Shown in pieces: positions 44,307-63,118 of a DNA stretch of 64,000 bases. The translations under genes and the position numbers were made by a program. Origin of the DNA: Ruminococcus sp. (GTDB lineage Bacteria; Bacillota; Clostridia; Oscillospirales; Acutalibacteraceae); assembly GCA_017457155.1 (NCBI GenBank), contig JAFTHZ010000020.1, forward strand, positions 1-64,000. The letters are read 5' to 3'. How positions within the stretch are numbered: the first letter of the stretch is position 1; every line of letters begins with the position of its first letter. The notes beneath the pieces are model-generated. The model saw only the letters and a program-made list of their open reading frames with translations. It made no database searches and was not told the origin of the DNA.

Positions 44307-44310
44307 TATA

Positions 44311-46211: not shown

Positions 46212-47328
46212 TGTTTTCAAGGGTCTCAATCCTTCCGTCGGTGAATTTCATCAGTCTGCGCCACTTGACCTGTTCGGGAACATTGGAGCTGATAAGCACA
46301 CTGCCTTTCTCGGAGAGTTTCTCAGCAGCCTGTGCCAGCAGAACTGTATCTGCATCAGCCTCATGAATCAACACTGTGTCAATATCATAGCTTTCCTCGG
46401 TAGTCTCCATTCTTTCCAGCAGGTCCAGATACAGAGCAAAACCGATGGCGTTGCTCTTTCTGCCCATTTTCTTCAGGAGTCGGTCATACTGACCACCTGA
46501 CAGGATGCTTGCGGGAATACCCTCGATGTATCCTTTGAACACAACACCGGAGTAGTATTTCATATCGTTTCCCACAGAGAAGTCGACTCTGACAGCTTTT
46601 GAGAAGCCGCTGATTTCGATGATTTTGCACAGACTTGCAAATTCAGCGAAGGCTGTTTTTTCGTCCTCAGTTGTCAGCAGGGGAGCGATGGATGAGAGAA
46701 CAGCCACGATGTTGCCGCTGTTTTCGATGAGAGCACAGAGTTTGTCGGTTTTCTCCGGAGCAATTTCTTCCTTGGTGCAGATATCTCTCAGCTCATGGGC
46801 GTTTTTCTGATGCAGACATGCATGAGCAGAAGCCTTGCCGTCGTGGCTGAGTCCGCTGTCATCGAGCATTGCTGCTATGAGTCCCATGTGTGAAATGTCC
46901 AGAACGTACTTGTTGTTTATAAGTGCCAGACTTTTGACCGCAAGAAGTACCACCTCGGCAATATCGTAGCTGTGCAGATCTCCTACACATTCAAGGCCTG
47001 CCTGCATAATCTCCTTGAAGGAGTGGGTGCCTTTTGCGACTCTGTATACATTCTCGTTATAGTAAAGCTTCTGCTTTTCTCCCTGACGGTCCACGGTGTT
47101 CTTGATTATGGATAGTGTTACATCAGGCTTGAGAGCCATGAGTTTTCCGCTTCTGTCAGTGAAGGTAATAACTTCATCAGATACAAGGAAGTCCTTGTTC
47201 TTTACATACAGGTCATATTCCTCAAAACGGCTCATCTTGAACTGAGAGTATCCGTACTGTCTGTACAGAGCACGCAGGGCAAAGATGGCACGCTCGTCGT
47301 TTTTTATGATCTTATCATCATTTATCAT
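46204..47328 (-). CDS. hisZ: ATP phosphoribosyltransferase regulatory subunit
   Basis: 374 aa HisRS-like protein without the tRNA-binding domain. ALRALYRQYGYSQFKMSRFE, RSGKLMALKPDVT, YYSGVVFKGY and SGGQYDRL resemble class II synthetase motifs 1-3. Forms an octamer with short HisG and mediates histidine inhibition. Overlaps the regulator upstream by 11 nt and hisG by 8 nt. Confidence 0.93.
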   Translation of the reverse strand: MINDDKIIKNDERAIFALRALYRQYGYSQFKMSRFEEYDLYVKNKDFLVSDEVITFTDRSGKLMALKPDVTLSIIKNTVDRQGEKQKLYYNENVYRVAKGTHSFKEIMQAGLECVGDLHSYDIAEVVLLAVKSLALINNKYVLDISHMGLIAAMLDDSGLSHDGKASAHACLHQKNAHELRDICTKEEIAPEKTDKLCALIENSGNIVAVLSSIAPLLTTEDEKTAFAEFASLCKIIEISGFSKAVRVDFSVGNDMKYYSGVVFKGYIEGIPASILSGGQYDRLLKKMGRKSNAIGFALYLDLLERMETTEESYDIDTVLIHEADADTVLLAQAAEKLSEKGSVLISSNVPEQVKWRRLMKFTDGRIETLENND

Positions 47329-48713: not shown

Positions 48714-48731
48714 TTGTTTAAAATTTAACAA
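48714..48731. promoter_or_regulatory. Rex-type redox operator upstream of the dehydrogenase-fumarase genes
   Basis: TTGTTTAAAATTTAACAA differs at one position from the clostridial Rex pattern TTGTTAA-N4-TTAACAA. It ends 15 nt before the -35 box. Rex leaves DNA when NADH rises, which would switch on NADH-consuming genes. No rex gene in the window. Confidence 0.55.
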
Positions 48732-48746
48732 AGATGTTCTGTTTAC

Positions 48747-48775
48747 TTGCAACATCACAGAATTTATGTTATAAT
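48747..48775 (+). promoter_or_regulatory. Promoter of the succinate-pathway genes
   Basis: TTGCAA (48747-48752), 17-nt spacer, TATAAT (48770-48775). The roughly 120-nt leader contains a hairpin, GCGAGAAAAAACT (48802-48814) with AGTTTTTCTTGC (48836-48847). Confidence 0.78.
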
Positions 48776-48904
48776 GCTACAAGTTGTAATATGGGATTTA
48801 TGCGAGAAAAAACTCTGATTTAGTCAGTTTTTCTTGCTCTTAATACCTATGTTTAACTATATTTGTGGTAATAATTTTTATCAACTGATAAAAGGAGAAG
48901 TATT

Positions 48905-49849
48905 ATGAATAAAATCACAGTGGTAGGTTCAGGCAGTGTAGGTGCAACTCTTGCATATACATTCACTGTTGCAGGACTTTGTTCTGAGGTAGTAATGATT
49001 GATATCAACAAGGAGAAAGCTCTGGGCGAAGCCATGGACATCCGTCAGGGAACACCTTTCTGTCATTCATGCTCTGTTTATGCAGGCAGCTTCCAGGATG
49101 CAGCAGGCTCTGATATTGTTGTTATTACATCAGGTGTTGCACGTGCTCCCGGCCAGTCCAGACTGGACCTTGCCCAGACCAATGTGGATGTTACAAAGAG
49201 CATCATACCCGAGATTACCCGCTACGCACCTGATGCTATCTATGTTATCGTCAGCAATCCCGTTGATGTTCTGACCTATGTGTTCTGCAAGGTTTCGGGA
49301 CTTCCTCAGGAGAGAGTAATTGGTTCAGGTACCATTCTTGATACCTCTCGTCTTCGTGCAAGACTTTCCGAGTACTACTTCCTCAATCAGCGCAATGTTC
49401 ATGCTTATGTACTGGGCGAGCACGGCAACTCAGGTTTTATTCCCTGGTCACTGTGTAACATCTCAAACGTTCCTGTTGAGGAGTACCGCAAGAGTGTTCA
49501 TCGTACAGACGTTGTTTATCCTGAACTCAATCTTCAGGAGGTTGAGGACTACGTAAAGAAGTCAGGAGCATCAATCATCAACAGCAAGGGTGCAACCTAC
49601 TATGCTGTTTCTGCTTCTGTATGCCATCTTTGCAAGTGCATCCTCAGCGGTGTTGATACAACACTCACGGTTTCTACTATGCTCAACGGTGAGTACGGCA
49701 TCAGCGATATTTGCCTGAGCCTTCTGAATGTAGTAGGTAATAACGGCGCTCACAGCAAGGTTTTACTCCCTATGACAGACGATGAGATTGCAAAGCTCCA
49801 CAAGAGTGCTGATACTCTCAGAGAAGTTATAAATAGCGTTAACTTCTGA
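48905..49849 (+). CDS. LDH/MDH-family dehydrogenase, predicted malate dehydrogenase
   Basis: 314 aa. Overall likeness is to L-lactate dehydrogenase ([27 protein letters not shown], Asp33 for NAD, catalytic Asp146, Arg149 and His173 in GEHG). But the specificity loop reads [14 protein letters not shown], so Arg80 stands where lactate dehydrogenases have Gln (Gln102 of the Bacillus enzyme). Arg at this site selects the dicarboxylate malate/oxaloacetate. GEHG is followed by Asn rather than the usual Asp. The next gene is fumarase, 35 nt on, and the neighbourhood leads to succinate. Automated annotation would probably say ldh. Rex-like control fits an NADH-oxidising enzyme of either type. Confidence 0.75.
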
Positions 49850-49883
49850 TTTGTTTGATAATAACCGAAAGGATAGGATTGAT

Positions 49884-51260
49884 ATGGATTATCGTATAGA
49901 ACACGATTCAATGGGTGAGGTTAAGGTTCCCGCAGATAAACTTTGGGGAGCACAGACCCAGCGTTCAAGTGAGAATTTTCTTATCGGAGCAGGAATTGAG
50001 ACAATGCCTGCAGAGATAGTTTCTGCTTTCGCTATTCTCAAGAAGGCAGCGGCTATGACTAATAGTACCCTCAGACCAGAGAAGATGACAGAAGCTAAGC
50101 TTTCTGCAATTTCTCAGGCATGCGATGAGGTGCTGGAGGGCAAGCTTTCAGGACACTTTCCTCTTGTTGTGTGGCAGACAGGCTCAGGCACACAGTCAAA
50201 TATGAATATGAACGAGGTTGTTGCTAACCGCGGCAATCAGATTGCAGGGGAGAAGCTTCTGCATCCCAACGATGATATCAACATGAGTCAGTCCTCCAAC
50301 GATACATTTCCCACGGCAATGCACATTGCAGCTGTCACAATGATCGAGGACAGACTTATCCCCGCAGCAGAGACTCTCATCAACACCTTTATCCGACTGG
50401 AAGAGGAAAACAAAGGCATCGTCAAGAGCGGCCGTACTCATCTTCAGGATGCAACTCCAATTACCTTCAGTCAGGAGATCAGCGGATGGCGCTCAAGCCT
50501 CGAGAGAGATGTTGAACTTCTGAAGGTTGCTGTCAAGCCTCTTTATGAGCTGGCACTGGGCGGTACAGCTGTGGGTACAGGGCTCAATACTCCTTCTGGA
50601 TTTGCTGAGCTTGTGGCAGAGAATGTTGCAAAGCTTACAGGAAAGCCCTTTGTAACCGCACAGAACAAGTTTCACGCTCTTACCTCCAAGGATGAGTTGG
50701 TTTTTGCTCATGGTGCAATCAAGGCTCTTGCCTGTGATATGATGAAGATTGCCAACGATATCCGTTGGCTTGCAAGCGGTCCCCGTGATGGTTTGGGAGA
50801 AATTTTCATTCCCGAGAACGAACCCGGTTCCTCAATTATGCCCGGCAAGGTCAATCCTACTCAGTGTGAGGCTGTGACCATGGTTGCCGTTCAGGTTATG
50901 GGCAACGATGTGGCTGTGGGAGTGGCAGCATCACAGGGTAACTTTGAACTTAATGTTTTCATGCCTGTGTGCATCTATAATTTCCTCCAGTCCGGAAGAC
51001 TTCTTTCCGAGGCAATTGTTTCATTCAATAAGAATTGTGCAGTTGGAATTACTGCCAATAAGGAGAAGATGCATCATAATCTCCACAATTCTCTTATGCT
51101 TGTCACAGCTCTCAACCCATATATCGGATATGAGAACGCTGCAAAAACAGCAAAGAAAGCATACAAGGAGAACATTTCTCTCAAGGAGGCCTGTGTTCAG
51201 CTGGGATTCTTGACAGAGGAAAGATTCGACGAGGTTTTCCATCCTGAAGAGATGGTGTAA
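49884..51260 (+). CDS. fumC: Class II fumarate hydratase
   Basis: 458 aa from ATG 49884 after GAAAGGATAGG. Interconverts malate and fumarate. [45 protein letters not shown] and the loop [13 protein letters not shown] are diagnostic. No Fe-S cluster, oxygen-stable class. Presumably runs malate to fumarate here, feeding the reductase encoded downstream. Confidence 0.95.
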
Positions 51261-51310
51261 ACCATAAACCGTAATTAACTTAAATTTTGATTTTCCAAGG
51301 AGCGATACGT

Positions 51311-52111
51311 ATGAAGGTATCCTACTTTCCCGGATGTACCCTGAAGAACAAGGCAAAAGATCTTGATGTATATGCAAGAAAGTGTGCCGAGATTCTCGGA
51401 GTAACTCTGGAAGAAATAGAAAACTGGCAGTGTTGCGGCGGTGTTTTTACATCTAAGGATGAGGTAGCAACCAAGCTGTCATCTCTGAGAGCCCTCAGAT
51501 ATGCACAGGACAGGTCCCAGCCTTTGGTGTCTGTGTGTTCTGCCTGTCATAATGTGCTCAAGCAGACAAACTATCTCATGCAGAATGATCAGGCTTTTGC
51601 TAACAAAGCAAACCTGTATATGACTTCTAACGAGTCTTGCGACCCTTATGATGGTACAACAGCCGTATATCATTATCTGGAGCTTCTTCGTGACGTTGTT
51701 GGCTTTGATAAAATCGCTGAGAAAGTCACAAACCCTCTCACAGGCAGAAAGATTGCTCCTTACTACGGTTGTCTTCTGCTCAGACCCAACAGCGTTATGC
51801 AGATGGATGACCCTGAGAATCCCACAATTTTTGAGGATTTTATCCGTGCACTGGGTGCTGAGCCTGTGGTGTATTCTATGCGCAATGAGTGTTGCGGCGG
51901 ATACGTCACAATGGAGGATCCCGACTTCTCAAAGTCAAAGAGCAACGCAGTGGTCAATAATGCCGTCAGTTTCGGAGCAGAGTGTGTTGTCACTGCCTGC
52001 CCCCTGTGTAAGTACAACCTCGACAAGAATACCCATACAATTCCCGTTGTTTATTTCACAGAACTTCTTGCAGAGGCTCTGGGTATAAAGGAGGATTGTG
52101 ACAATGCATAA
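51311..52111 (+). CDS. hdrB: HdrB-like CCG-domain protein (disulfide reductase subunit B)
   Basis: 266 aa from ATG 51311 after AAGGAGCG. Two CCG domains, each with Cys, CC and CXXC: Cys9, 41-42, 76, 79, and Cys154, 194-195, 230, 233. In methanogens these bind two unusual [4Fe-4S] clusters that reduce the CoM-CoB heterodisulfide. In bacteria the substrate is unknown (DsrC in some sulfate reducers). All ten Cys are present, so both clusters should form. First gene of the Hdr-Flx run, 50 nt after fumC. Confidence 0.92.
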   Translation: MKVSYFPGCTLKNKAKDLDVYARKCAEILGVTLEEIENWQCCGGVFTSKDEVATKLSSLRALRYAQDRSQPLVSVCSACHNVLKQTNYLMQNDQAFANKANLYMTSNESCDPYDGTTAVYHYLELLRDVVGFDKIAEKVTNPLTGRKIAPYYGCLLLRPNSVMQMDDPENPTIFEDFIRALGAEPVVYSMRNECCGGYVTMEDPDFSKSKSNAVVNNAVSFGAECVVTACPLCKYNLDKNTHTIPVVYFTELLAEALGIKEDCDNA

Positions 52112-52496
52112 TGATAACAGAAAAATTGCAGACGAGATTATTCTCAGAAGCGGAGTCAATCCCCGCAAATGTATGAAGTGCGGCAAATGTACTGCCACGT
52201 GTCCTGCATTTGACAGAATGGAGTATCATCCCCATCAGTTTGTTTATATGGTAGAGACAGGGGATATTGAGCCTCTTCTTGAGTCGAAGTCTCTGTACAC
52301 ATGCCTTTCCTGTTTTGCTTGTGTGGACCGATGTCCCCGTGGCGTTGAGCCTGCAAAGCTTGTGGAGGGTGTGCGTAATGCAGTCATCAGACAGCAGGGC
52401 AAAAACCACATGACCGCTGATGATGTGCCGGGTAAGCTTGATTCTGATCTGCCTCAGCAGGCCATTGTCAGCGCGTTCAGAAAGTATACAAAGTAA
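52104..52496 (+). CDS. hdrC: HdrC-like iron-sulfur subunit
   Basis: 130 aa from ATG 52104, 9 nt after AAAGGAGG, overlapping hdrB by 8 nt. Two [4Fe-4S] motifs, CMKCGKCTATCPA and CLSCFACVDRCPRG. Passes electrons between HdrA and HdrB. No membrane part. Confidence 0.92.
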   Translation: MHNDNRKIADEIILRSGVNPRKCMKCGKCTATCPAFDRMEYHPHQFVYMVETGDIEPLLESKSLYTCLSCFACVDRCPRGVEPAKLVEGVRNAVIRQQGKNHMTADDVPGKLDSDLPQQAIVSAFRKYTK

Positions 52497-52511
52497 GGAG
52501 GAGAAAACACA

Positions 52512-54506
52512 ATGCAGAGAATAGGCGTATTCGTATGCTGGTGCGGAAGCAATATTGCCGGTACGGTTGATGTACAGGCGGTATCTGATGCTCTCAGAAA
52601 TGAGCCGGGAGTTGTTTTCTCCACCAACTATCAATATATGTGTTCACAGGCGGGTCAGGATATTATCATCCAGGCGGTCAAGGAGCATAATCTGACAGGA
52701 ATCGTAGTGTGTTCCTGTTCACCCCGTATGCACGAGGCAACCTTCCGAAAGACTGCAGCCGCTGCAGGTCTCAATCCTTATATGGTAGAGATTGCTAATA
52801 TTCGTGAGCAGTGTTCATGGGTACATAAGGATATGGCATCAGGCACAGAGAAGGCCATCATCCTTGGCAAGGCTGCTGTTGCGAAGGTAAACCTCAACGC
52901 ACCTCTTACCCCCGGAGAGACCCCTGTCACAAAGCGCGCACTGGTTATTGGTGGCGGTATAGCGGGTATCCAGACAGCTCTGGATATTGCAGATGCAGGT
53001 TTCCCTGTTGATATTGTTGAGAAAAATCCTACTATCGGTGGAAAGATGGCGCAGCTTGACAAGACTTTTCCCACACTGGATTGTGCGGCCTGTATCCTGA
53101 CTCCCAAAATGGTAGATGTTGCCCAGAATGACAATATCCGTATTTTCTCATACAGTGAGGTAGAAGATATCAAGGGCTTTGTAGGCAATTTTGACGTAAA
53201 GATCAGAAAAAAGGCCCGTTTTGTCAAAGAGGATATATGTACAGGATGCGGACTCTGTACAGAGAAGTGTCCCGTAAGGAAAGTCCCCAATGAGTTTAAT
53301 CTGGGAATGGATAACCGCAGAGCTATCTATATTCCTTTTGCACAGGCAGTTCCCAAGGTTGCAACCATCGACCCTGATGCCTGTAATATGCTGAAGTCCG
53401 GCAAGTGCGGCGTGTGCTCAAAGGTATGTACTGCAGGTGCCATTGATTACAAACAACAGGACGAGATATTGGATGAGAAGTATGGTGCTATTGTTGTTGC
53501 CACAGGCTTCAATCCAATCAGCATGGACAAGTTTGACGAGTATGCCTACAATCAGTCCAAGGATGTCATCACCTCATTGGAGTTTGAGCGTCTGACAAAT
53601 GCTGCAGGTCCCACACAGGGCAAGCTCCTGCGTCCTTCTGACCTGAAGCATCCCCACACCATAGTTTTCGTACAGTGTGTGGGTTCACGTTGTGCCTCCT
53701 GTGCCGAAAAAGGCAAGGAGTACTGCTCCAAAATTTGCTGTATGTATACCGCAAAGCACGCAATGCTTATCAGAGACAAATACCCTGACACAGAGGTGTA
53801 TGTCTTCTATATTGATGTTCGTACTCCCGGAAAGAATTTTGATGAGTTCTATCGTCGTGCTGTGGAGGAGTACGGAGTAAAGTACATCAAGGGTATGGTA
53901 GGTAAGGTAGTTCCCGAGGGCGACAAGCTCAAGGTTCAGGCATCTGACCTTATAGCAGGCAAGCAGCTTCATATTGATGCTGACCTTGTTGTACTTGCAG
54001 CTGCTATCGAACCCGACAAATCTGCCCGTCCTCTGGCAACAATGCTAACTGCCAGTATGGATACCAACGATTTCTTCACAGAAGCACATCCTAAGCTTCG
54101 TCCTGTAGAGAGTCCTACAGCAGGCGTGTTCCTCTCAGGTGCATGTCAGGGACCCAAGGATATCCCTGAGACAGTTTCTCAGGCATCTGCTGCGGCAGCT
54201 AAGGTCATTGGCCTTCTTGTGAAGGACAAGCTTACAGGTAACCCCTGTGTTGCTTCTGCCAACGAGATGATGTGCAACGGCTGTTCTACTTGTGAGAGAG
54301 TATGTCCCTACGGAGCAATTACCTATATAGACAAGGAGTTCCGTATGCCTGACAGAACAGTGGCTACCCGACGTGTTGCACAGGTCAATCCTGCCGTGTG
54401 TCAGGGTTGCGGCGCATGTACCGTTGCATGTATGTCAGGCGCTATGGATCTGCGTGGATTTATGAGTTCACAGATTATTGCGGAGGTGGATGCAATATGC
54501 AAGTAA
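52512..54506 (+). CDS. hdrA: HdrA-like FAD/iron-sulfur subunit, candidate electron-bifurcating centre
   Basis: 664 aa, full-length HdrA. N-terminal Cys region (GVFVCWCGSNIAG), FAD Rossmann loop VIGGGIAGIQTALD (about 143-156), inserted ferredoxin with CTGCGLCTEKCPV and a further Cys set near GKCGVCSKVC, and C-terminal double ferredoxin CNGCSTCERVCPYG and CQGCGACTVACMSG. The FAD of HdrA is the established bifurcation site in HdrABC-MvhAGD. Here NADH would replace H2 through FlxA. Overlaps flxD by 10 nt. Confidence 0.93.
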   Translation: MQRIGVFVCWCGSNIAGTVDVQAVSDALRNEPGVVFSTNYQYMCSQAGQDIIIQAVKEHNLTGIVVCSCSPRMHEATFRKTAAAAGLNPYMVEIANIREQCSWVHKDMASGTEKAIILGKAAVAKVNLNAPLTPGETPVTKRALVIGGGIAGIQTALDIADAGFPVDIVEKNPTIGGKMAQLDKTFPTLDCAACILTPKMVDVAQNDNIRIFSYSEVEDIKGFVGNFDVKIRKKARFVKEDICTGCGLCTEKCPVRKVPNEFNLGMDNRRAIYIPFAQAVPKVATIDPDACNMLKSGKCGVCSKVCTAGAIDYKQQDEILDEKYGAIVVATGFNPISMDKFDEYAYNQSKDVITSLEFERLTNAAGPTQGKLLRPSDLKHPHTIVFVQCVGSRCASCAEKGKEYCSKICCMYTAKHAMLIRDKYPDTEVYVFYIDVRTPGKNFDEFYRRAVEEYGVKYIKGMVGKVVPEGDKLKVQASDLIAGKQLHIDADLVVLAAAIEPDKSARPLATMLTASMDTNDFFTEAHPKLRPVESPTAGVFLSGACQGPKDIPETVSQASAAAAKVIGLLVKDKLTGNPCVASANEMMCNGCSTCERVCPYGAITYIDKEFRMPDRTVATRRVAQVNPAVCQGCGACTVACMSGAMDLRGFMSSQIIAEVDAICK

Positions 54507-54931
54507 ACAAGTACAGACCCCTTATCGTTGCATTCTGCTGCAACTGGTGTTCTTATGCAGGCGCAGACTTGGCAGGTAACAATCGACTGAATTATCCTGC
54601 AGACGTTAAGATTATCCGTGTGCCCTGCTCCTGCAGAGTTAATCCTTCATTTGTGCTACGTGCTTTCCAGCGTGGTGCTGATGGAGTTATCATCTGCGGA
54701 TGTCACCCCGGAGATTGTCACTATACATCAGGTAACTACTACACCCGTCGTCGTATGGCACTGCTTTTTTCAATGCTTGATTATCTTGGCATTGAGCGGG
54801 AGCGTACCCGTCTTGAGTGGGTGTCTGCTGCCGAAGGCGCAAAGTTTGCGGCTACTATGAATGATTTTGCAGAGCAGGTTGCTGCTCTGGGAGAGAACAA
54901 GAGACTGGAGGACCTGCGATGCAAAAGATAA
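54497..54931 (+). CDS. flxD: FlxD/MvhD-like [2Fe-2S] subunit
   Basis: 144 aa from ATG 54497 with GGAGGTGG upstream. The longer open frame starts inside hdrA and is rejected. Conserved Cys pattern CCNWCSYAGAD, VPCSCR and CGCHPGDCHY typical of MvhD, which links an electron input module to HdrA. Overlaps hdrA (10 nt) and flxC (13 nt). Confidence 0.92.
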   Translation: MQVNKYRPLIVAFCCNWCSYAGADLAGNNRLNYPADVKIIRVPCSCRVNPSFVLRAFQRGADGVIICGCHPGDCHYTSGNYYTRRRMALLFSMLDYLGIERERTRLEWVSAAEGAKFAATMNDFAEQVAALGENKRLEDLRCKR

Positions 54932-55914
54932 ATCGAGATGTTCTGATCGACAGAGCGATTTCTCTGCTGAACTCAGGACAGGTCAGCTCTGTACTGGGAT
55001 GGCGTCAGGGAGAGTTCTTCTATGATGTGACCCCTGCAGTCTTTACTGATGAGAATGATATCAGAGAAAATTTTGTATGGAATGATTTCTGCGGTGCTAA
55101 TTTTTCCAAATATCTTGTCTCAAAGACAAAGGCTTCTGATGGAAAGATTCTTGTTTTCCTCAAGCCCTGTGACACATATAGCTTCAACCAGCTGTTGACA
55201 GAGCACAGGTTTGACCGCGAAAAGGTATATGTAATAGGAATCCCTTGTGAGGGAATGGTTGATACTGGCAAACTGAAGGCTCAGGTAGGAGATGGTCTTG
55301 TTTCTGCACAGAGCACAGAGGAAGGACTTCTGGTCACAACTCTGTATTCAGATGAGCCTGTGAATGTTGATATAAAAAGTGTTCTTGCAGAGAGATGTAT
55401 TAACTGCAAGAGCAAAAAGCACGTTGCCTATGATGAGCTTCTTGGCGATGAGGGTCAGATTGAGGACTCTGACCGATTTGATGAAGTAGCAAGGATCGAG
55501 GCTATGTCCCCTGATGAGAGGTTTGCGTTCTGGCAGGGAGAATTGTCCCGTTGCATCCGATGCAATGCATGCCGTGATGTGTGTCCTGCCTGCACCTGTG
55601 AGAAATGTGTGTTTGACAATCCTGTCTCAGGAGTAGAGAACAAGGCTCCCGTCAACAGCTTTGAGGAGAAGATGTTCCATATTATCCGAGCTTTCCACGT
55701 GGCAGGAAGATGTACAGACTGCGGAGAATGCTCCAGAGTTTGTCCCCAGAATATTCCTCTGCATCTGCTCAACAGAAAGTTTATCAAGGATATCAACGGC
55801 TTCTACGGAGAATACCAGGCAGGAGAGTGTGTGGGAAGTCGTGCACCTCTTGTTGATTATAATCTTGAGGATTTAGAGGCATCCGATGTTTTTGAGGGGA
55901 GGGATACACAGTGA
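54919..55914 (+). CDS. flxC: FlxC-like iron-sulfur protein
   Basis: 331 aa. An N-terminal region of about 190 residues (FLKPCDTYSFNQLL, VIGIPCEGMVD) related to the beta subunit of F420 hydrogenase/dehydrogenase, then a two-cluster ferredoxin domain (CIRCNACRDVCPAC, CTDCGECSRVCPQN). Matches FlxC of the FlxABCD-HdrABC systems described in anaerobes. Stop overlaps the flxB GTG (GTGA). Confidence 0.85.
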   Translation: MQKINRDVLIDRAISLLNSGQVSSVLGWRQGEFFYDVTPAVFTDENDIRENFVWNDFCGANFSKYLVSKTKASDGKILVFLKPCDTYSFNQLLTEHRFDREKVYVIGIPCEGMVDTGKLKAQVGDGLVSAQSTEEGLLVTTLYSDEPVNVDIKSVLAERCINCKSKKHVAYDELLGDEGQIEDSDRFDEVARIEAMSPDERFAFWQGELSRCIRCNACRDVCPACTCEKCVFDNPVSGVENKAPVNSFEEKMFHIIRAFHVAGRCTDCGECSRVCPQNIPLHLLNRKFIKDINGFYGEYQAGECVGSRAPLVDYNLEDLEASDVFEGRDTQ

Positions 55915-56936
55915 TTCGCAAGTGTTCCTTAACTAAGCTGAACGATTTTTTTGCAGCAATCGCAGGTGACAAAACCCTCTACATCCCTGCATCTGACGGT
56001 GCAGGCGGTGCTGTGTACAAAAAATGGGACAGCAACACACAGTATCTTGATGTTCTCAATACTGTGAAAAGCCCCAAGGACTTTTTCTTTCCTCATACAG
56101 AGGATCTGATGGAGTTTAAGGTCAAGGGCAAGAATATAGAACTTCTTGATATCAGACAGGAGTCCGAGGATTTTGTGGTTTTCGGAGTACGTCCCTGTGA
56201 CGTCAAGAGCTTTGATATTCTCGACAGAGTATTCCTTTCTGAACCTGTAGACAGCTATTATGCGTCACGCAGAGAGCATGGGATTATCATCTCCTTGGCA
56301 TGCAGCAAGCCTTCAGAGACCTGCTTCTGCACTACTTTCGATATTGACCCCACAGAGCCTGAGGGAGATATCTCTGCATGGAAGACAGATGATGCACTGT
56401 ATCTGCGTGCCAATACCGAGAAAGGCGAGGCCCTTATGGCTTTGGTTGAGCACCTGACCGAGGAGTGCGACGATGCTCCCGTAGTGGCTCAGAAGCAGAA
56501 TGTAAAGAAGATTCTTGACAAACTTCCTTTGGCAGGTTTGAAGCTTGACGTTTTTGGAAAAGGCAAAACCGAAGAGTTATTTGATGATCCTGCTTGGGAT
56601 ACACTCTCTGAGGCTTGTCTCGGATGTGGCACATGTACCTTTGTGTGTCCTACCTGTCAGTGCTACGATATAAAAGATTTTGATACAGGAAACGGCGTGA
56701 TTCGTTATCGATGCTGGGATTCCTGTATGTTCAGCGAGTTTACAAAGATGGCTCACGGCAATCCGCGTCTGACTCAAAAAGAGCGTTTTCGTCAGCGTTT
56801 TATGCACAAGCTTGTGTATTATCCTGACAACAACGATGGCCTTTTCAGCTGTGTAGGTTGCGGACGTTGCCTTGCAAAATGTCCTGTTTCTATGAATATA
56901 GCAAAGGTCATGAAGAAACTTGGAGGTGAGAAGTAA
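55911..56936 (+). CDS. flxB: FlxB-like iron-sulfur protein (AsrA/hydrogenase-beta type)
   Basis: 341 aa, GTG start after GAGGGGAGGG. N-terminal domain with FGVRPCDVKSFDILD and a Cys-rich patch (CSKPSETCFCTTF), C-terminal double [4Fe-4S] (CLGCGTCTFVCPTC, CVGCGRCLAKCPVS). Related to AsrA and sulfhydrogenase beta subunits, which relay electrons from the flavin subunit. Overlaps flxA by 1 nt. Confidence 0.88.
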   Translation: MIRKCSLTKLNDFFAAIAGDKTLYIPASDGAGGAVYKKWDSNTQYLDVLNTVKSPKDFFFPHTEDLMEFKVKGKNIELLDIRQESEDFVVFGVRPCDVKSFDILDRVFLSEPVDSYYASRREHGIIISLACSKPSETCFCTTFDIDPTEPEGDISAWKTDDALYLRANTEKGEALMALVEHLTEECDDAPVVAQKQNVKKILDKLPLAGLKLDVFGKGKTEELFDDPAWDTLSEACLGCGTCTFVCPTCQCYDIKDFDTGNGVIRYRCWDSCMFSEFTKMAHGNPRLTQKERFRQRFMHKLVYYPDNNDGLFSCVGCGRCLAKCPVSMNIAKVMKKLGGEK

Positions 56937-57769
56937 TGAACAATCGTCCCGAGACACTTATCCCTGTGATAGGAGTAATTACAGATGTTCGTATTGACAC
57001 CCCTGATGTAAAGACTTTTCGTGTTGTAACCCCCGATGGAAAGAAAGCGTTTGACCACAAACCCGGTCAGTGTGCCATGCTCTCCATTCCCGGTGTGGGT
57101 GAGGCAATGTTTTCAATTACCTCCTCACCCACAAACACAGAGTTTATGGAGTTTTCTATCAAAAAATGCGGTTGTGTGACCGATTGGTTGCATCAGGCAG
57201 AGGTTGGTCAGCAGCTTACTATCAGAGGACCCTACGGAAGACCTTTCCCTGTTGATGATGAATTTGCGGGCAAGGACCTGTTGTTTATTGCGGGTGGTAT
57301 TGGATTGGCTCCTCTGCGTTCAGTTATCAACTATTGTCGTCACTATCGTGACAGATATGGAGAGATAGATATTGTCTATGGCTCCCGTAGTAGTGCAGAC
57401 CTTGTTGATTATCAGGAGATTATCGAGGAATGGACAAAGGACACCGGTGTCCGAGTTCACCTGACAATCGATAATCCCGAGGAGGGATGGGATGGTCATG
57501 TAGGCTTTGTTCCCTCCTATGTGAAGGAGCTCTCATTCGAGACCAACAAGACTGCCATTATTTGCGGACCTCCCATTATGATCAAGTTCACCCTTGATGC
57601 CATGATTGAGATGGGCTTTGCCAAGGAGCAGGTATATACCACTATGGAGCTTCGTATGAAGTGCGGAGTAGGCAAGTGCGGCAGATGTAACATCGGCTCT
57701 AAATATGTTTGCAAGGATGGTCCCGTATTCCGTTGTGACGAGCTTTCAGAGCTTCCCGACGAGTACTGA
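56936..57769 (+). CDS. flxA: FlxA-like NAD(P)H-binding flavoprotein
   Basis: 277 aa ferredoxin-reductase fold. FAD domain (KPGQCAMLSIPGVG, FSITSSPT), NAD domain (FIAGGIGLAPLRSVI, YGSRSSADLVD, CGPPIMIKF) and a C-terminal [2Fe-2S] motif MKCGVGKCGRCNIG plus YVCKDGP, as in PyrK/AsrB. Expected to oxidise NADH and feed FlxB/C/D and HdrA. Confidence 0.92.
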   Translation: MNNRPETLIPVIGVITDVRIDTPDVKTFRVVTPDGKKAFDHKPGQCAMLSIPGVGEAMFSITSSPTNTEFMEFSIKKCGCVTDWLHQAEVGQQLTIRGPYGRPFPVDDEFAGKDLLFIAGGIGLAPLRSVINYCRHYRDRYGEIDIVYGSRSSADLVDYQEIIEEWTKDTGVRVHLTIDNPEEGWDGHVGFVPSYVKELSFETNKTAIICGPPIMIKFTLDAMIEMGFAKEQVYTTMELRMKCGVGKCGRCNIGSKYVCKDGPVFRCDELSELPDEY

Positions 57770-57784
57770 TTGGAGGATATGAAA

Positions 57785-58459
57785 ATGGAAAATATGGTAA
57801 ACGTTTTTCTGTTCGGAAAGAAGTACGCTGTTCCGGACAATCTGACAATAATGCGTGCCATGGAGTATGCAGGCTATGAGCTTGTCCGTGGCTGTGGTTG
57901 CCGCAACGGTTTCTGCGGAGCATGTGCCACTATTTATCGCATTAAGGGCGACAGAGAGCTCAAGGCTTGTCTTGCTTGCCAGACCAAGGTAGAGGATAAT
58001 ATGTATATCGCAACTCTGCCTTTCTTTCCTCTGGTCAAGCAGGTCTATGATATCGAGAATATACCCACCACCGAGCAGGTGATGATGCAGCTTTATCCTG
58101 AGATTTATGCCTGTATCGGTTGTAATGCCTGCACAAAGTCCTGTACTCAGGGGCTGAATGTTATGCAGTATATCTCTTATGCACAGAGAGGTGACTTTGC
58201 AGCTTGTGCAGAGGAGTCCTTTGACTGTGTAATGTGCGGAGTATGTTCTTCCCGCTGTCCTGCAGGAATCTCTCATCCTCAGGTTGGTATGCTTGCAAGA
58301 CGTATCAACGGCAAGTATCTTGCTCCAGGATGTGACCATCTGGAGAATAGGGTCAGAGAGATTCAGGACGGAACCTTCACAGAGCTTATTGAGTCACTTA
58401 TGCAGAAGCCTGTAGAAGAGATGAAAGAACTTTATAACAATAGAGATATAGAGAAGTAA
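57785..58459 (+). CDS. frdB: Fumarate reductase iron-sulfur subunit, TfrB-like without CCG domain
   Basis: 224 aa from ATG 57785, 8 nt after GGAGG. An N-terminal [2Fe-2S] domain (RGCGCRNGFCGACATIY and KACLAC) and two cluster motifs, CIGCNACTKSCTQG and CVMCGVCSSRCPAG. Quinone-linked FrdB has a [3Fe-4S] cluster at the last site, with the second Cys replaced; here that Cys is present, predicting [4Fe-4S]. Methanogen TfrB has a fused C-terminal CCG (HdrB-like) part, absent here, while a separate hdrB lies in the same cluster. Confidence 0.85.
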   Translation: MENMVNVFLFGKKYAVPDNLTIMRAMEYAGYELVRGCGCRNGFCGACATIYRIKGDRELKACLACQTKVEDNMYIATLPFFPLVKQVYDIENIPTTEQVMMQLYPEIYACIGCNACTKSCTQGLNVMQYISYAQRGDFAACAEESFDCVMCGVCSSRCPAGISHPQVGMLARRINGKYLAPGCDHLENRVREIQDGTFTELIESLMQKPVEEMKELYNNRDIEK

Positions 58460-58472
58460 GGAGGGCTATTAC

Positions 58473-60071
58473 ATGTATTCAGAACAGTTTCAGAAATCTC
58501 TGCAGGCTGTGGCTGATGCCAGAGAGGCAAACATCGCCTACGAGCCTCAGCGAATGACAGCCCAGCAGAAGGAGGACCTCCTGAAGGAGTATCATCCCGA
58601 CTACAAGACTTCCGAGTTCACAGAGCTTCTGATAGGCCCCAACAAGGGCGACAAAGTGCCCCACGAGCTTGCCGAGACTCTGCAGGCTCACTCAAGAATC
58701 AAGGCAGAGGACGTAGACCTAGCAACCCCTGACTACGATGTTGATGTGCTCATCATCGGTGGTGGCGGAGCAGGTGCTTCTGCTGCAATTGAGGCACATA
58801 ACTCAGGCGCCAGCGTAATGATAGTTACAAAACTTCGCATCGGTGATGCCAACACTATGATGGCAGAGGGCGGTATTCAGGCAGCTGACAAGGAGAATGA
58901 CTCTCCTGCAATCCACTTTGTGGATGCTTTCGGTGGCGGTCACTTTGCAGCCAAGCGAGAGCTTCTGAGTAAGCTTGTGTGCGATGCCCCCGAGGCTATT
59001 CAATGGCTTTCTGGGCTGGGTGTTGAGTTTGACAAAGACCCACAGGGCAATATGATCACCACCCACGGCGGAGGTACATCACGCAAGCGTATGCATGCGG
59101 CAAAGGACTACTCAGGTGCCGAGATAATGCGTACTCTCCGTGATGAGGTGCTCAATCGTCAGATTCCTGTTGTAGATTTTACTTCCGCAATCGAGCTTAT
59201 TCTTGATACTAACGGCAACGCAGCCGGTGCAGTGCTTATGAACATGGAGACAAAGGAACTCCTTGTTGCAAGGGCAAAGACCGTTATCATCGCTACCGGC
59301 GGTGCAGGACGTATGCACTATCAGGGATTCCCCACATCAAACCATTATGGAGCTACAGCCGATGGCCTTGTGCTGGGATACAGAGTCGGCGCAAAGCTTC
59401 TCTATGCTGAGACACTTCAGTACCATCCCACAGGAGCTGCTTTCCCCGAGCAGATTTTCGGTGCTCTCGTTACCGAGAAAGTCCGCTCTCTGGGAGCAAA
59501 GCTTGTCAATGAAAAAGGCGAGGTGTTCATGCATCCCCTGGAGACCCGTGATGTTGCAGCAGCTTCTATCATCCGTGAATGTTCCGACAGAGACAACGGC
59601 ATTGATACAGGAAGCGGCAAGGGTGTATGGCTTGATACTCCCATGATCGAAAAAATCGGCGGAGAGGGAACAATCGAAAAAAGAATTCCAGCTATGATGC
59701 GTATGTTTGAGAAGTACGGCATCGATATTCGCAAGGAGCCTATCCTCGTATATCCCACACTTCACTACCAGAACGGTGGTCTCGATATTACTGAGGACTG
59801 TATGACCACCAATGTGGAGAACTTATATGTTGCAGGAGAGGCAATAGGAGGTATCCACGGCAGAAACCGTCTCATGGGTAACTCTCTCCTTGATATCATC
59901 GTTTTCGGTCGCTCAGCAGGCAAAAACGCCGCACAGAAGAGCAAGGATGTCACTATTGGTGAGCTTACTCTCGACCATATAGAGAAGTTTGAGCAGGAGA
60001 TTAAGGACGCAGGTATTGTTACTGACAGTGTTTCTCCCAAGCTTCTGCCTAAGTATACCAGAGATGTGTGA
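58473..60071 (+). CDS. frdA: Fumarate reductase flavoprotein subunit, soluble TfrA-like type
   Basis: 532 aa, AGGAGGG ribosome site. FAD loop DVLIIGGGGAGASAA starts near residue 91, leaving an 88-residue N-terminal extension without Cys that I do not recognise. Catalytic pattern of the family is kept: HPTG, Arg in TEKVRSLG, LHYQNGG, ETRD, and GNSLLDIIVFGR. The His that binds FAD covalently in membrane Sdh/Frd is Asn127 here (ANTMMAEGG), predicting non-covalent FAD. No anchor subunit genes follow. Most likely reduces fumarate to succinate with electrons from FrdB/Hdr-Flx. Could also be another acrylate-type reductase of this superfamily. Confidence 0.85.
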   Translation: MYSEQFQKSLQAVADAREANIAYEPQRMTAQQKEDLLKEYHPDYKTSEFTELLIGPNKGDKVPHELAETLQAHSRIKAEDVDLATPDYDVDVLIIGGGGAGASAAIEAHNSGASVMIVTKLRIGDANTMMAEGGIQAADKENDSPAIHFVDAFGGGHFAAKRELLSKLVCDAPEAIQWLSGLGVEFDKDPQGNMITTHGGGTSRKRMHAAKDYSGAEIMRTLRDEVLNRQIPVVDFTSAIELILDTNGNAAGAVLMNMETKELLVARAKTVIIATGGAGRMHYQGFPTSNHYGATADGLVLGYRVGAKLLYAETLQYHPTGAAFPEQIFGALVTEKVRSLGAKLVNEKGEVFMHPLETRDVAAASIIRECSDRDNGIDTGSGKGVWLDTPMIEKIGGEGTIEKRIPAMMRMFEKYGIDIRKEPILVYPTLHYQNGGLDITEDCMTTNVENLYVAGEAIGGIHGRNRLMGNSLLDIIVFGRSAGKNAAQKSKDVTIGELTLDHIEKFEQEIKDAGIVTDSVSPKLLPKYTRDV

Positions 60072-60123
60072 TAATTCTCTTGAAGAATTAAATTTTATAT
60101 ATGAAAAATAAGGAGATGGCGTA

Positions 60124-61383
60124 ATGTCTTTGTTCGGAGGGGTAATCTCCATCACAGGAGTTTCCTTCTTTCTGTTCTGTGTGTTTGCGATATTGGTTGT
60201 CGGATACGCATTAGGCAGAATCACTATCAAGGGTGTATCTCTTGGTGATGCAGGTGTATTTATTGTGGCACTTCTCTTCGGAGCTCTGTTCTGCTCAAGC
60301 TTTGTGACTGATGCTTTTGGCGCAGAACCCGTTGTATTCGACGCTAAATGGATGGAGCTTATAGAGAGTTTCGGTCTGGTGCTGTTTGTCACAAGCGTTG
60401 GATTTATTGCAGGCCCCAAGTTCTTTGCCAATATGAAGAAGAACTTCAAGTCCTATGTACTTCTGGGTTTGATCATTATCGTCGCAGGCGGATTGTCAGC
60501 TCTGGGTTGTATAGCTCTTGGTAAGTATGTTTTCGGATTTGGTGCAGATACAATAACCGATATTGACGGATTTGTTGCCATGATTGTTGGTTTGCTTTCA
60601 GGCTCTCTGACCTCAACCCCTGCTTTCTCAGCTGCCAAGGCAACTGTTGCGCCCGAGTACCAGAGTCTTGTTTCAGTGGGTCATGGTATTGCATACATAT
60701 TCGGAGTTGTGGGTGTTGTACTTTTTGTTCAGCTTATTCCCAAGCTCTCCAAAGCAGATATGGAGAGAGAACGTGCGTTGATTGCTGTTAAGGAGACAGA
60801 AACAGCAAAGAAAAAGAAGGAGAGAACCTTCCACTTTGATCATATGGGTCTTTGTGTATTCTCGCTTGCTGCTATCCTTGGTACAGTTGTAGGAAAAATC
60901 AAAATTCCCATGAGTTCCCAGGGCCTTGACGGCACATGCTTCTCACTGACAACCACAGGTGGTTGTTTGCTTGTGTCCCTTCTTATCGGACACTTCGGTG
61001 GAGTAGGCAAGGTGAGCCTTATGCCTGCAGAAACTACCCTCAAGCTTTTCCGCGAGCTTGGTCTTGTGCTCTTCCTTGTAGGTGCAGGTATTCCCGGCGG
61101 AATGGACTTTGTAGCCAACTTTAACGCAATGTACTTTGTTTATGGTATAATTATGACCATCATTCCCATGGTTCTTGGATACCTGTTTGCAAAGTATGTG
61201 CTGAAGCTTAATCTTCTCAACAATCTTGGTTCCATCACAGGCGGAATGACCAGTACCCCTGCGCTTGGTACACTTATTGGTGTTGCAGGAACAGAGGATG
61301 TTGCAGCAGCATATGCCGCAACATATCCCATAGCCCTCATCTCTGTAGTGCTGGTATCTCAGTTCCTGATACTTGTTTTCTAA
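60124..61383 (+). CDS. AspT/SucE-like (AAEx family) transporter, predicted succinate exporter
   Basis: 419 aa with about ten membrane segments in two homologous halves. Each half carries the GLLSGSLTSTPAFSAA or SITGGMTSTPALG signature of the aspartate:alanine exchanger family. The usual cytoplasmic TrkA_C domains between halves are replaced by a short Lys/Glu-rich loop (about residues 213-240). Family members include aspartate-alanine exchangers and the succinate exporter SucE of Corynebacterium. Position right after the fumarate reductase genes, 52 nt on, makes succinate or another C4-dicarboxylate the best guess. Confidence 0.82.
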   Translation: MSLFGGVISITGVSFFLFCVFAILVVGYALGRITIKGVSLGDAGVFIVALLFGALFCSSFVTDAFGAEPVVFDAKWMELIESFGLVLFVTSVGFIAGPKFFANMKKNFKSYVLLGLIIIVAGGLSALGCIALGKYVFGFGADTITDIDGFVAMIVGLLSGSLTSTPAFSAAKATVAPEYQSLVSVGHGIAYIFGVVGVVLFVQLIPKLSKADMERERALIAVKETETAKKKKERTFHFDHMGLCVFSLAAILGTVVGKIKIPMSSQGLDGTCFSLTTTGGCLLVSLLIGHFGGVGKVSLMPAETTLKLFRELGLVLFLVGAGIPGGMDFVANFNAMYFVYGIIMTIIPMVLGYLFAKYVLKLNLLNNLGSITGGMTSTPALGTLIGVAGTEDVAAAYAATYPIALISVVLVSQFLILVF

Positions 61384-61404: not shown

Positions 61405-61430
61405 GACCCTTTCTGTTCACAGAGAGGGTC
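61405..61430 (+). terminator. Weak terminator hairpin after the transporter
   Basis: GACCCTTTCT/AGAGAGGGTC with one mismatch, followed by ACTTTATTT. Confidence 0.5.
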
Positions 61431-61579: not shown

Positions 61580-63118
61580 ATGGATGAAAGAACACAAAGT
61601 GTTTCCATGGTGGAAACCAAACCTGCTACCTTGCTCATTGTTGATTCAAGAAGACAGCCCATGATCATTCCGCTCAATGGAAGTATGTCTCTGGGCAGAG
61701 ATTATCCCGAGGCAAAGACTCACATCAGAGTCAAGTCCTCCATCACAGGACGCAGACAGGGTGAGTTTATTTTTAACCCTGCCGATGGAAACTACTACTA
61801 CATAGACAACAACAGCACAAACGGTACCTATGTGAATGGAGTGAAGCTCCCTTATTTCAACGAGAGGGGAACAAGAGCTCATCGTTTGTCAGATGGTGAT
61901 ATACTTCGTATTGACCGACGTACACTCAATGATCCTCATCCTGAGTCTGTGCTCATTATTTTCAGCCTCAGCTTTTCTTTGGATCAGAAGTGGATGTCTG
62001 CAGCTATCCCTCCCGGAGATATGACAATCGGACGTGGACACCAGAACGCTCTTCCTCTGGAGGATCTGGCTGCCTCCAGAAATCATGCGTTGCTGCGCAA
62101 TACTCCTCAGGGCCTTTTGCTGTATGATTGCAACAGCACAAACGGTATCCGTGTCAACAACATCCCCATTACAGGCGGAGTACATATATATGACCACGAT
62201 GTGTTCAGAATAGCAAATACTATTTTCATCGTATTGGGAAATACCCTTGTATATAACTATCTGGGTGAGCGTTCAGGTACGCTTTCGGTGCATATCAAGC
62301 GCAAGACCGTCAACATGGGACGAAAAACTCTTCTTCGTGATATCAAGTTCGATGCAGATAACGGCGAGTTTATTCTCATTCTGGGCGGTTCCGGTGCAGG
62401 TAAGACCACTCTGGTCAATGCTATCCTCGGTGATGGCAAGGCTGAGGGCGAGGTTATCCTTGACGGACAGAACCTGTACACTAACTTCAAGACTATGAAA
62501 TCCCAGATTGGTCTTGTTCCTCAGTTCTTGAACCTGAGAGTCAACGATAAGGTTAAGCAGACTCTTATGGATATTGCTGATATCAAGCTTCCCGGAAGCT
62601 CCTACTCTAGGGAAGAGAAGCTCAAGAGAGTTGACGCTATAATGGATAAGGTTGGTATCACCAATCTGCAGAATCATCTTCTCAGACAGCTTTCCGGCGG
62701 CCAGAAGAAGAAGGTCTCGGTTGCAGCACAGCTGGTAGGTTTCCAGAAGGTGTTTATCTGTGATGAGCCTGATTCGGGTCTTGATGCAGCTTCCCGTATG
62801 CAGCAGATGGAGATCCTCAAGGAGATTGCAGATAACGGAAAGATCGTTATGGTTATCTCTCACGAGCCTGATGATGCTGTGGATGAGAAGACCCGCAAGA
62901 TCCTTTTCACCAAGGTTATCGTTCTTGCCAGAAGCTCTACAGACTTGTGCGGACGTCTTGCCTTCTACGGTAGCCCCGAGATGGCACTGAGCTACTTTGG
63001 CGTTAACAGACTTCAGGATATTATGCTTGAGATCAATCCTCCTCACGAGGGAGGACGTGGTCGTGCAGACCATTATATAGAAAAATACATCAACACAATC
63101 GGAGGAGGACAAGTCTGA
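61580..63118 (+). CDS. ABC transporter ATPase with two N-terminal FHA domains
   Basis: 512 aa, GGGGA ribosome site. FHA 1 (about 20-130: MSLGRDYPEA, NSTNGTYVNG) and FHA 2 (about 145-235: MTIGRGHQNALPLE, AASRNHALL, NSTNGIRVNN) bind phosphothreonine peptides. The ABC domain (about 250-470) has Walker A GGSGAGKTT (about 268), signature LSGGQKKKV and Walker B VFICDEPDSGLD, of the ABCG type. Phospho-dependent control by a Ser/Thr kinase is implied but no kinase gene is here. Stop overlaps the permease start (TGATG). Confidence 0.9.
   Translation: MDERTQSVSMVETKPATLLIVDSRRQPMIIPLNGSMSLGRDYPEAKTHIRVKSSITGRRQGEFIFNPADGNYYYIDNNSTNGTYVNGVKLPYFNERGTRAHRLSDGDILRIDRRTLNDPHPESVLIIFSLSFSLDQKWMSAAIPPGDMTIGRGHQNALPLEDLAASRNHALLRNTPQGLLLYDCNSTNGIRVNNIPITGGVHIYDHDVFRIANTIFIVLGNTLVYNYLGERSGTLSVHIKRKTVNMGRKTLLRDIKFDADNGEFILILGGSGAGKTTLVNAILGDGKAEGEVILDGQNLYTNFKTMKSQIGLVPQFLNLRVNDKVKQTLMDIADIKLPGSSYSREEKLKRVDAIMDKVGITNLQNHLLRQLSGGQKKKVSVAAQLVGFQKVFICDEPDSGLDAASRMQQMEILKEIADNGKIVMVISHEPDDAVDEKTRKILFTKVIVLARSSTDLCGRLAFYGSPEMALSYFGVNRLQDIMLEINPPHEGGRGRADHYIEKYINTIGGGQV

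Follow-up and report, generated by a model that had tools for sequence, protein, structure and literature searches.

The window analysed here, positions 1–64,000 of contig JAFTHZ010000020.1 (Ruminococcus sp., Acutalibacteraceae; assembly GCA_017457155.1), carries an operon of twelve intact frames on the + strand at 48905–61383. Their order is mdh-fumC-hdrBCA-flxDCBA-frdBA-AspT/SucE-family exporter. By this analysis the operon very probably provides soluble fumarate reduction driven by NADH. Coupling of this soluble NADH:fumarate reductase to ferredoxin reduction at HdrA, the exact contact between HdrB and FrdB aside, is likely, and direct electron transfer from HdrB to FrdB is slightly favoured. 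In its fullest form the proposal describes a soluble NADH:ferredoxin/fumarate complex of nine subunits. HdrB would pass electrons directly to FrdB, and fumarate, not a disulfide, would be the high-potential acceptor of Hdr bifurcation. The complex would give quinone-free gut Oscillospiraceae, among them Ruminococcus flavefaciens, their main energy-conserving route to succinate. FrdBA would act as a plug-in module that has been joined across Bacillota to HdrABC-Flx, to HdrABC with a doubled HdrA, to HdrBC alone, or to none. We consider the chances that all these parts hold together to be about even.

The gene content, order, single strand and short gaps or overlaps given in the original prediction were confirmed from the frames and family matches, with junctions of −14 to +52 bases. 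All the frames were intact, but several starts in the program-made frame list lay too far upstream; the most likely start of flxD is 54497, that of fumC 49884 and that of hdrB 51311. These start codons were chosen from the frames; the open frames run from 49851 for fumC and from 51287 for hdrB. The central claim, a soluble NADH-driven fumarate reductase fed through Flx-Hdr, was well supported by sequence, through a reordered linkage with the Dcu transporter, the co-occurrence of HdrA and FrdA, the residues of the fumarate site, and the lack of an Sdh_cyt or menaquinone-type prenyltransferase match in the own genome.

At least 560 relatives were found. Eighty named loci were kept; most come from metagenome-assembled genomes (MAGs) with Oscillospiraceae or Clostridia in the title, and herbivore guts are the source of many. 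Gut MAGs of these groups are also the nearest named relatives of the window operon. All nine genes hdrBCA-flxDCBA-frdBA were found by tblastn in 58 of these 80 loci, and 21 were cut by contig ends. One locus (L097) had frdBA alone despite 10 kb of upstream sequence. L099 was dropped from the locus classification by the coverage/stop filter, and the nine-gene count covers all 80. The set was also complete in 18 of 20 fetched family loci. Among 250 genomes of the family, FrdA was found in 34 (E ≤ 1e-120; own genome included) and HdrA in 27 (E ≤ 1e-80), all of them among the 34. The 216 family genomes without FrdA gave no HdrA match (Fisher 4.5e-30 for the co-occurrence, not corrected for kinship).

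The phylum sample showed the same linkage in other arrangements. FrdA was found in 39 of 398 genomes, the own genome among them, and 33 loci were fetched from 32 of the 39. They comprised five full modules, five loci with HdrABC, four with HdrBC, one with a cut HdrA, 14 with no hdr gene found in the stretch and four that were too short. One locus, L221, was first classed as HdrABC and became a full module once extended (L257). The reordered arrangement frdBA-hdrBCA-flxDCBA was found in L253, L254, L255 and L257, from two other families, and a Dcu C4-dicarboxylate transporter gene lay downstream in three of the four (TIGR00770 at 565 and 569 bits in two, cut-off 331; the third by tblastn). The fifth distant full module (L231) had the order hdrCBA-flxDCBA-frdBA. 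The survival of the linkage through reordering, beside a fumarate/succinate antiporter family, is the strongest argument from sequence for fumarate as the acceptor served by Flx-Hdr.

The FrdA tree was built from 98 rows after near-identical ones had been removed by k-mer similarity, with the seven HdrA_cut rows merged and L221 set to full. The full-module label needed 6 changes on this tree versus 23 in shuffles, so the Hdr-Flx link was gained or lost several times. The L097 locus, from genome G180, lay inside a module-bearing FrdA clade (branch support 90). FrdAB seems either to have outlived the loss of Hdr-Flx there or to use another donor. L241 is the same stretch as L097: frdBA alone, with an FrdA 80% identical, in a 1.2 Mb genome that is 99% complete and gave no HdrA match.

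Several loci placed other genes beside frdBA. L209 (6932–10144, − strand) encodes a 1070-aa protein with two HdrA-like parts beside hdrCBA, flxD and frdBA, with similar hits in L210, L211, L212 and L246; the module adjoins a malic-enzyme-like gene and, by eye, frames resembling 2-oxoacid:ferredoxin oxidoreductase. It reads as a different putative donor module on the same FrdBA. hdrC-hdrB adjoined frdBA with no hdrA or flx in L213, L217, L223 and L226, which form one FrdA clade (Shimodaira–Hasegawa-like approximate likelihood ratio test 99); L217 also has a DctM gene of the tripartite ATP-independent periplasmic type. In L240 (9838–14666, + strand; G176), frdBA directly follows genes like oxaloacetate decarboxylase beta and alpha in a genome with no HdrA match, which hints at a further way of coupling energy to the reduction of fumarate. 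In L126 the full module, with an FrdA 78% identical, sits on a contig placed in an uncultured Treponema (Spirochaetota) bin, through either transfer or misbinning. The frdA match of L020 (G080:C9:43353–44945) contains one in-frame TGA. Rows with stops or less than 80% coverage were left out of the cysteine and upstream alignments.

The gene frdA (58473–60071, + strand) encodes the fumarate reductase flavoprotein. The protein matched PF00890 (FAD_binding_2), and its best NCBIfam match was TfrA at 344 bits (cut-off 718). His318, Glu335, Arg338, Arg359, His431 and Arg466 were invariant in 45/45 rows; we take these six to be the dicarboxylate and proton-delivery residues of E. coli FrdA. The FAD_binding_2 domain and the dicarboxylate-site residues place the protein in the FrdA/SdhA superfamily. 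Its AlphaFold2 (AF2) model, with a predicted local distance difference test score (pLDDT) of 84.8, had E. coli quinol:fumarate reductase FrdA as best fold match (E 4e-31 to 6e-31, 31% identity). Members of the family have in common an N-terminal extension of about 88 residues, and no Succ_DH_flav_C match was present at the C-terminus in the family search. Asn127 stands where the covalent-FAD histidine would be; this position is Asn in 45/45 rows and in 102 of 103 rows of a larger alignment (one His). A second FrdA-like gene of the own genome was rejected as FrdA: it scored above the L-aspartate oxidase cut-off, and this NadB gene lies beside frames resembling, by eye, NadA and NadC.

The gene frdB (57770–58459, + strand) encodes a 229-aa subunit with Fer2 and dicluster Fer4 domains, predicted to hold one [2Fe-2S] and two [4Fe-4S] clusters. 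The cysteines 44/49/52/70, 115/118/121/125 and 153/156/159/163 were present in 38/38 rows (the window and 37 relatives below 65% identity). By its spacing, the second CxxCxxCxxxC motif is a full ligand set for a predicted [4Fe-4S] cluster. Quinone-linked FrdB carries a [3Fe-4S] cluster at this place. The AF2 model of FrdB had a pLDDT of 87. Foldseek gave four matches at E ≤ 0.001, with low template-modelling scores, and HdrC chains stood at ranks 10, 18, 20 and 45 among the 50 matches listed.

The original prediction of a route without a membrane fumarate reductase agrees with the searches made. No Sdh_cyt anchor was found in the operon or in the own genome (88.95% complete), where FrdC/FrdD-type models were not searched. 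A menaquinone-type prenyltransferase was likewise not recognised in the own genome; other menaquinone genes were not searched. A membrane quinol:fumarate reductase was rejected, as no Sdh_cyt anchor was found in the 89%-complete genome and Asn stands in place of the covalent-FAD histidine. Two UbiA proteins of the own genome were rejected as menaquinone enzymes: they best matched decaprenyl-phosphate phosphoribosyltransferase models, one of them over the cut-off. Among the remaining 33 genomes with FrdA, none gave a UbiA match over the cut-off, and two gave a weaker one.

The seven linked genes hdrABC and flxABCD give the window the composition of an FlxABCD-HdrABC system. The gene hdrA (52512–54506, + strand) encodes a subunit with FAD and [4Fe-4S] clusters, the predicted site of bifurcation and of ferredoxin reduction. 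Alignments of HdrA to its counterparts in solved Hdr complexes were full-length (5odc_A, 692 bits, residues 3–661; 8rvu_a, 670 bits). These alignments and the conserved cysteines cover the FAD site, the N-terminal domain and the C-terminal ferredoxin-type clusters, whose ligands (Cys 588/591/594/598 and 630/633/636/640) were kept in 85/85 rows. HdrA scored 790 bits against the curated HdrA2 model, below the cut-off of 1100, and flxD is a separate gene here. FlxD (54497–54931, + strand), an MvhD-like [2Fe-2S] subunit (FlpD PF02662, 187 bits), aligned to the C-terminal part of this fused model, with Cys 47/48/51/77/79/102/107 in 35/35 rows over the matched stretches. Bifurcation at HdrA is predicted by homology to the HdrA of the solved complexes.

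HdrC (52098–52496, + strand) is a relay subunit for two [4Fe-4S] clusters, with matches to TIGR03290 (below cut-off), Fer4 and dicluster 4Fe-4S families; its eight cysteines were kept in 79–80 of 80 rows. HdrB (51311–52111, + strand) has two CCG domains (PF02754 in two stretches), predicted to bind two noncubane [4Fe-4S] clusters. All ten CCG cysteines were kept in 78 of 79 rows. It scored 148 bits to SdhE (cut-off 500) and 153 bits to coenzyme B–coenzyme M (CoB-CoM) HdrB, both below cut-off. FlxC (54919–55914, + strand) is a 4Fe-4S dicluster subunit with 4Fe-4S family matches and a position conserved among relatives. FlxB (55911–56936, + strand) is a 4Fe-4S subunit of the sulfhydrogenase beta / AsrA-related type; its closest family is sulfhydrogenase beta, and NF040833 matched at 174 bits, below cut-off. 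FlxA (56936–57769, + strand) has FAD/NAD-binding domains and a DHODB-type Fe-S domain (PF00175, PF00970, PF10418) and is the predicted entry point of NADH.

These features suggest the following path. Malate dehydrogenase and FumC would convert oxaloacetate to malate and then to fumarate. FlxA would oxidise NADH, and electrons would pass through FlxB, FlxC and FlxD to the FAD of HdrA, where each pair most likely separates. One of the two electrons would go uphill through the C-terminal [4Fe-4S] clusters of HdrA to ferredoxin. Its partner would take the downhill branch, by way of HdrC and HdrB with its noncubane clusters, directly into FrdB and FrdA and reduce fumarate. The net reaction would be 2 NADH + fumarate + 2 Fd(ox) → 2 NAD+ + succinate + 2 Fd(red), where Fd is ferredoxin. 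The midpoint potentials are about +30 mV for fumarate/succinate, −320 mV for NADH and −420 to −500 mV for ferredoxin, so the coupled reaction would be exergonic. Reduced ferredoxin would be re-oxidised by Rnf, with formation of an ion gradient, or by an [FeFe] hydrogenase, and succinate would leave through the AspT-family exporter. The own genome encodes RnfC and has [FeFe] hydrogenase genes. Rnf was rejected as an operon member, its RnfC gene being located on another contig. An RnfC match was found in 31 of the 34 family genomes with FrdA. The electron path HdrA→HdrC→HdrB and bifurcation are described for methanogen HdrA2B2C2 in the passages on that complex in PMC5296606.

Flx-Hdr could instead be a mere wire from NADH to FrdAB, with all electrons going to fumarate and the low-potential branch of HdrA idle. 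The function of HdrA is read from homology alone, and this FrdA type occurs without an HdrA match, so the reductase itself does not need bifurcation. Against such a wire, the C-terminal ligands of HdrA (588–598 and 630–640) are kept in every row, RnfC accompanies FrdA in most genomes, and nine subunits would be costly for plain conduction; we consider it improbable. A small or protein dithiol between HdrB and FrdAB, resembling the methanogen pair of Hdr and Tfr joined through a disulfide, is the other candidate for the downhill branch. In methanogens, the CCG domain of TfrB oxidises a thiol carrier that HdrB reduces. The conservation of both five-cysteine CCG sets in HdrB, as in disulfide-reducing HdrB, favours such a link, and PMC7282089 has Flx-Hdr pass electrons to ferredoxin "(and thiols)". 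In the family searches of the window proteins, FrdB had no CCG match, unlike the fused TfrB, and no CCG protein besides HdrB was found in the own genome. The dithiol variant offered by the original prediction is thereby weakened, since the thiol-oxidising, Tfr-like second CCG subunit was not found in this 89%-complete genome, and a free shuttle is less likely with HdrB as the sole CCG protein found. The four loci with hdrBC next to frdBA and no hdrA also fit direct contact, and we hold a dithiol link to be unlikely. Direct HdrB–FrdB contact is favoured because FrdB, HdrC and HdrB match different parts of the single methanogen TfrB model, as in a natural fusion, all far below cut-off (FrdB 37 bits, cut-off 385).

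Operation in the opposite, confurcating direction would make the complex a succinate dehydrogenase. Hdr-linked complexes can be reversible, and the doubled-HdrA relative L209 lies near the malic-enzyme-like gene and the frames that by eye resemble 2-oxoacid:ferredoxin oxidoreductase. When E. coli FrdA loses its covalent-FAD histidine, succinate oxidation suffers more than fumarate reduction does, and the Asn found at this position in nearly all rows argues against such a role, as do mdh, fumC, the exporter and the Rex-like site, which fit reduction. We regard succinate oxidation as very unlikely. An FrdA this remote from characterised enzymes, and with no C-terminal domain match, might instead reduce a different alpha,beta-unsaturated acid or some other substrate. 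The catalytic residues are kept, fumC and a malate-type mdh stand in the operon, and in three distant loci the module is followed downstream by Dcu, which makes a substrate other than fumarate hardly probable.

The ferredoxin-coupled fumarate reductase proposed here also has a number of observations weighing against it. Seven of the 34 FrdA genomes (G047, G062, G166, G176, G180, G182, G244) had no HdrA match; G062 is 81% complete and in G182 frdA lies at a contig edge, and the other five are 93–99% complete. In the phylum sample, 14 of the 33 loci had frdA with no hdr gene in the fetched stretch. Since FrdA occurs without an HdrA match in family and phylum loci, FrdAB of this type can probably be driven by a different donor. 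RnfC was not matched in three of the 34 FrdA genomes, of which G007 and G188 are 99% complete. The HdrA-less genomes and the RnfC gaps weaken obligatory coupling, not the assignment as a soluble fumarate reductase. The original prediction had proposed looking for hdr-flx-frd synteny in other Ruminococcus genomes. R. flavefaciens FD-1 (L136) has the block; the sample's two further genomes from the genus of the window, each 100% complete, have no FrdA. HdrB retains all cluster ligands of the disulfide-reducing enzyme, perhaps more than a plain relay needs. PEPCK_ATP, the one family searched as a source of oxaloacetate, had no match in the own genome. The literature searched contained no biochemical test of ferredoxin coupling by Flx-Hdr-Frd. 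In passages of PMC4759654, the Flx-Hdr of Desulfovibrio vulgaris is thought to serve DsrC in ethanol/sulfate metabolism. The physiology reported for Pseudoclostridium thermosuccinogenes in passages of PMC7282089 is mixed: added H2 nearly abolished succinate, which its authors judged fitting, and Na2S had the opposite effect.

The gene mdh (48905–49849, + strand) encodes an NAD-type dehydrogenase of the lactate dehydrogenase (LDH)-like family with Ldh_1 N- and C-domains. In this family, Gln at the specificity position indicates lactate and Arg indicates malate. The position is Arg80 here and Arg in 50/50 aligned rows (the window and one duplicate included); in two aligned solved chains, both annotated L-LDH, it is Arg in 1y6j and Gln in 4m1q. 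NCBIfam L-lactate dehydrogenase models scored above cut-off. Lactate dehydrogenase was rejected despite this hidden Markov model score, for the Arg in place of Gln, and the gene is read as a putative malate dehydrogenase. The dehydrogenase originally predicted at the head of the operon is thus present and refined to the malate type, and with it the operon would span oxaloacetate to succinate. The second gene, fumC (49884–51260, + strand), encodes a class II fumarase (TIGR00979, fumC_II, 716 bits, cut-off 665). The last gene (60124–61383, + strand) belongs to the AspT/SucE family (PF06826, Asp-Al_Ex, in two stretches) and is predicted to export succinate. A tblastn match covering 75% or more of the protein was present in 60 of 102 loci, one duplicate among them; some of the loci stop short of the gene.

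The Rex-like site originally noted ahead of the operon is present at 48714–48731. This predicted operator for an NADH/NAD+ sensor reads TTGTTTAAAATTTAACAA, with one mismatch to TTGTTAANNNNTTAACAA, the clostridial Rex consensus. A second one-mismatch site lies at 1722–1739, before an open frame starting at 1904. The window holds 10 sites with up to three mismatches versus 4.1 expected from shuffles, so a single site is weak evidence. Among orthologous operons, sites with up to two mismatches were found in 14 of 76 upstream regions versus 0.92 expected from resampled sequence, and in 13 of 70 versus 0.79 expected after removal of copies; the other 62 of the 76 regions had no such site. The 76 regions were drawn from 100 loci, and L043 and L077, which are the same contig, were both counted, here and in the row counts of conserved residues. 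The own genome encodes one Rex-type N-terminal domain above cut-off. Control of the operon by the NADH/NAD+ ratio is plausible, and it would fit because the operon is predicted to consume NADH.

A promoter-like site (48747–48775, + strand; TTGCAA-N17-TATAAT, 10/12 matches, TG before the second hexamer) lies 15 bases past the Rex-like site, and a terminator-like hairpin of the intrinsic type (61405–61430, + strand; 11 pairs, 6 G-C) lies at the operon end; both are consensus matches only. Because these sites stand in front of and behind the genes, the simplest reading is a single transcription unit, and it is probably under Rex control. The flanks look unrelated to the operon. sfsA and his genes lie on the other strand, with hisZ-like, hisG, hisD, an aminotransferase gene and hisB in a single upstream run (42658–47328, − strand). 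An FHA-domain ABC ATPase and an ABC-2 membrane protein follow immediately after the operon (61580–63969, + strand).

Gut and rumen fermenters release succinate as a major product, propionate is made from it, and how energy is conserved at the fumarate step without a membrane fumarate reductase was not settled in the papers found. If the coupling is true, models of succinate formation would need different yields and redox balances, R. flavefaciens FD-1 would be a ready test organism, and Flx-Hdr would gain a defined acceptor outside the sulfate reducers. The Hdr-less relatives offer a natural control.

The window operon shares the FrdA fold and substrate residues with E. coli FrdABCD. It differs in that no anchor was found, the covalent-FAD histidine is missing, and [4Fe-4S] ligands stand at the place of the quinone-side [3Fe-4S] cluster. 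In the 8-methylmenaquinol:fumarate reductase SdhABE, the CCG protein SdhE feeds the FrdB-like Fe-S subunit. The window HdrB is about as close to SdhE as to CoB-CoM HdrB, but it scores far below the SdhE cut-off, and HdrC, HdrA and Flx take the place of quinol. Methanogen TfrAB resembles the window proteins in that TfrA is the best NCBIfam match of FrdA and in that FrdB, HdrC and HdrB each correspond to parts of TfrB. It differs in that FrdB and HdrB are separate proteins here, the scores are far below cut-off, no second CCG protein was found and nothing points to a thiol donor. FlxABCD-HdrABC of D. vulgaris has the same seven electron-transfer subunits, to which the window operon adds a fumarate reductase next door.

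The operon belongs to a kind already proposed in print. The "succinate operon" of P. thermosuccinogenes (locus tags CDQ83_RS03315–RS03365) is described in passages of PMC7282089 as containing fumarate hydratase, Flx-Hdr, fumarate reductase and a possible succinate transporter. It was about 4-fold up under CO2 limitation, not significantly for every subunit, and ferredoxin-linked fumarate reduction was assumed there, citing a 2019 preprint (Koendjbiharie and van Kranenburg). Compared with this published description, not by sequence, the window operon likewise unites fumarase, Flx-Hdr, fumarate reductase and transporter, with the same proposed ferredoxin coupling. A malate dehydrogenase heads the window operon, whereas none is named in those passages. 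No description of the operon in Ruminococcus was found in the literature searched. New here are the map of how the block is distributed, its reordered form linked to Dcu, the malate type of the first dehydrogenase, the failure to find a thiol partner and the natural controls without Hdr.

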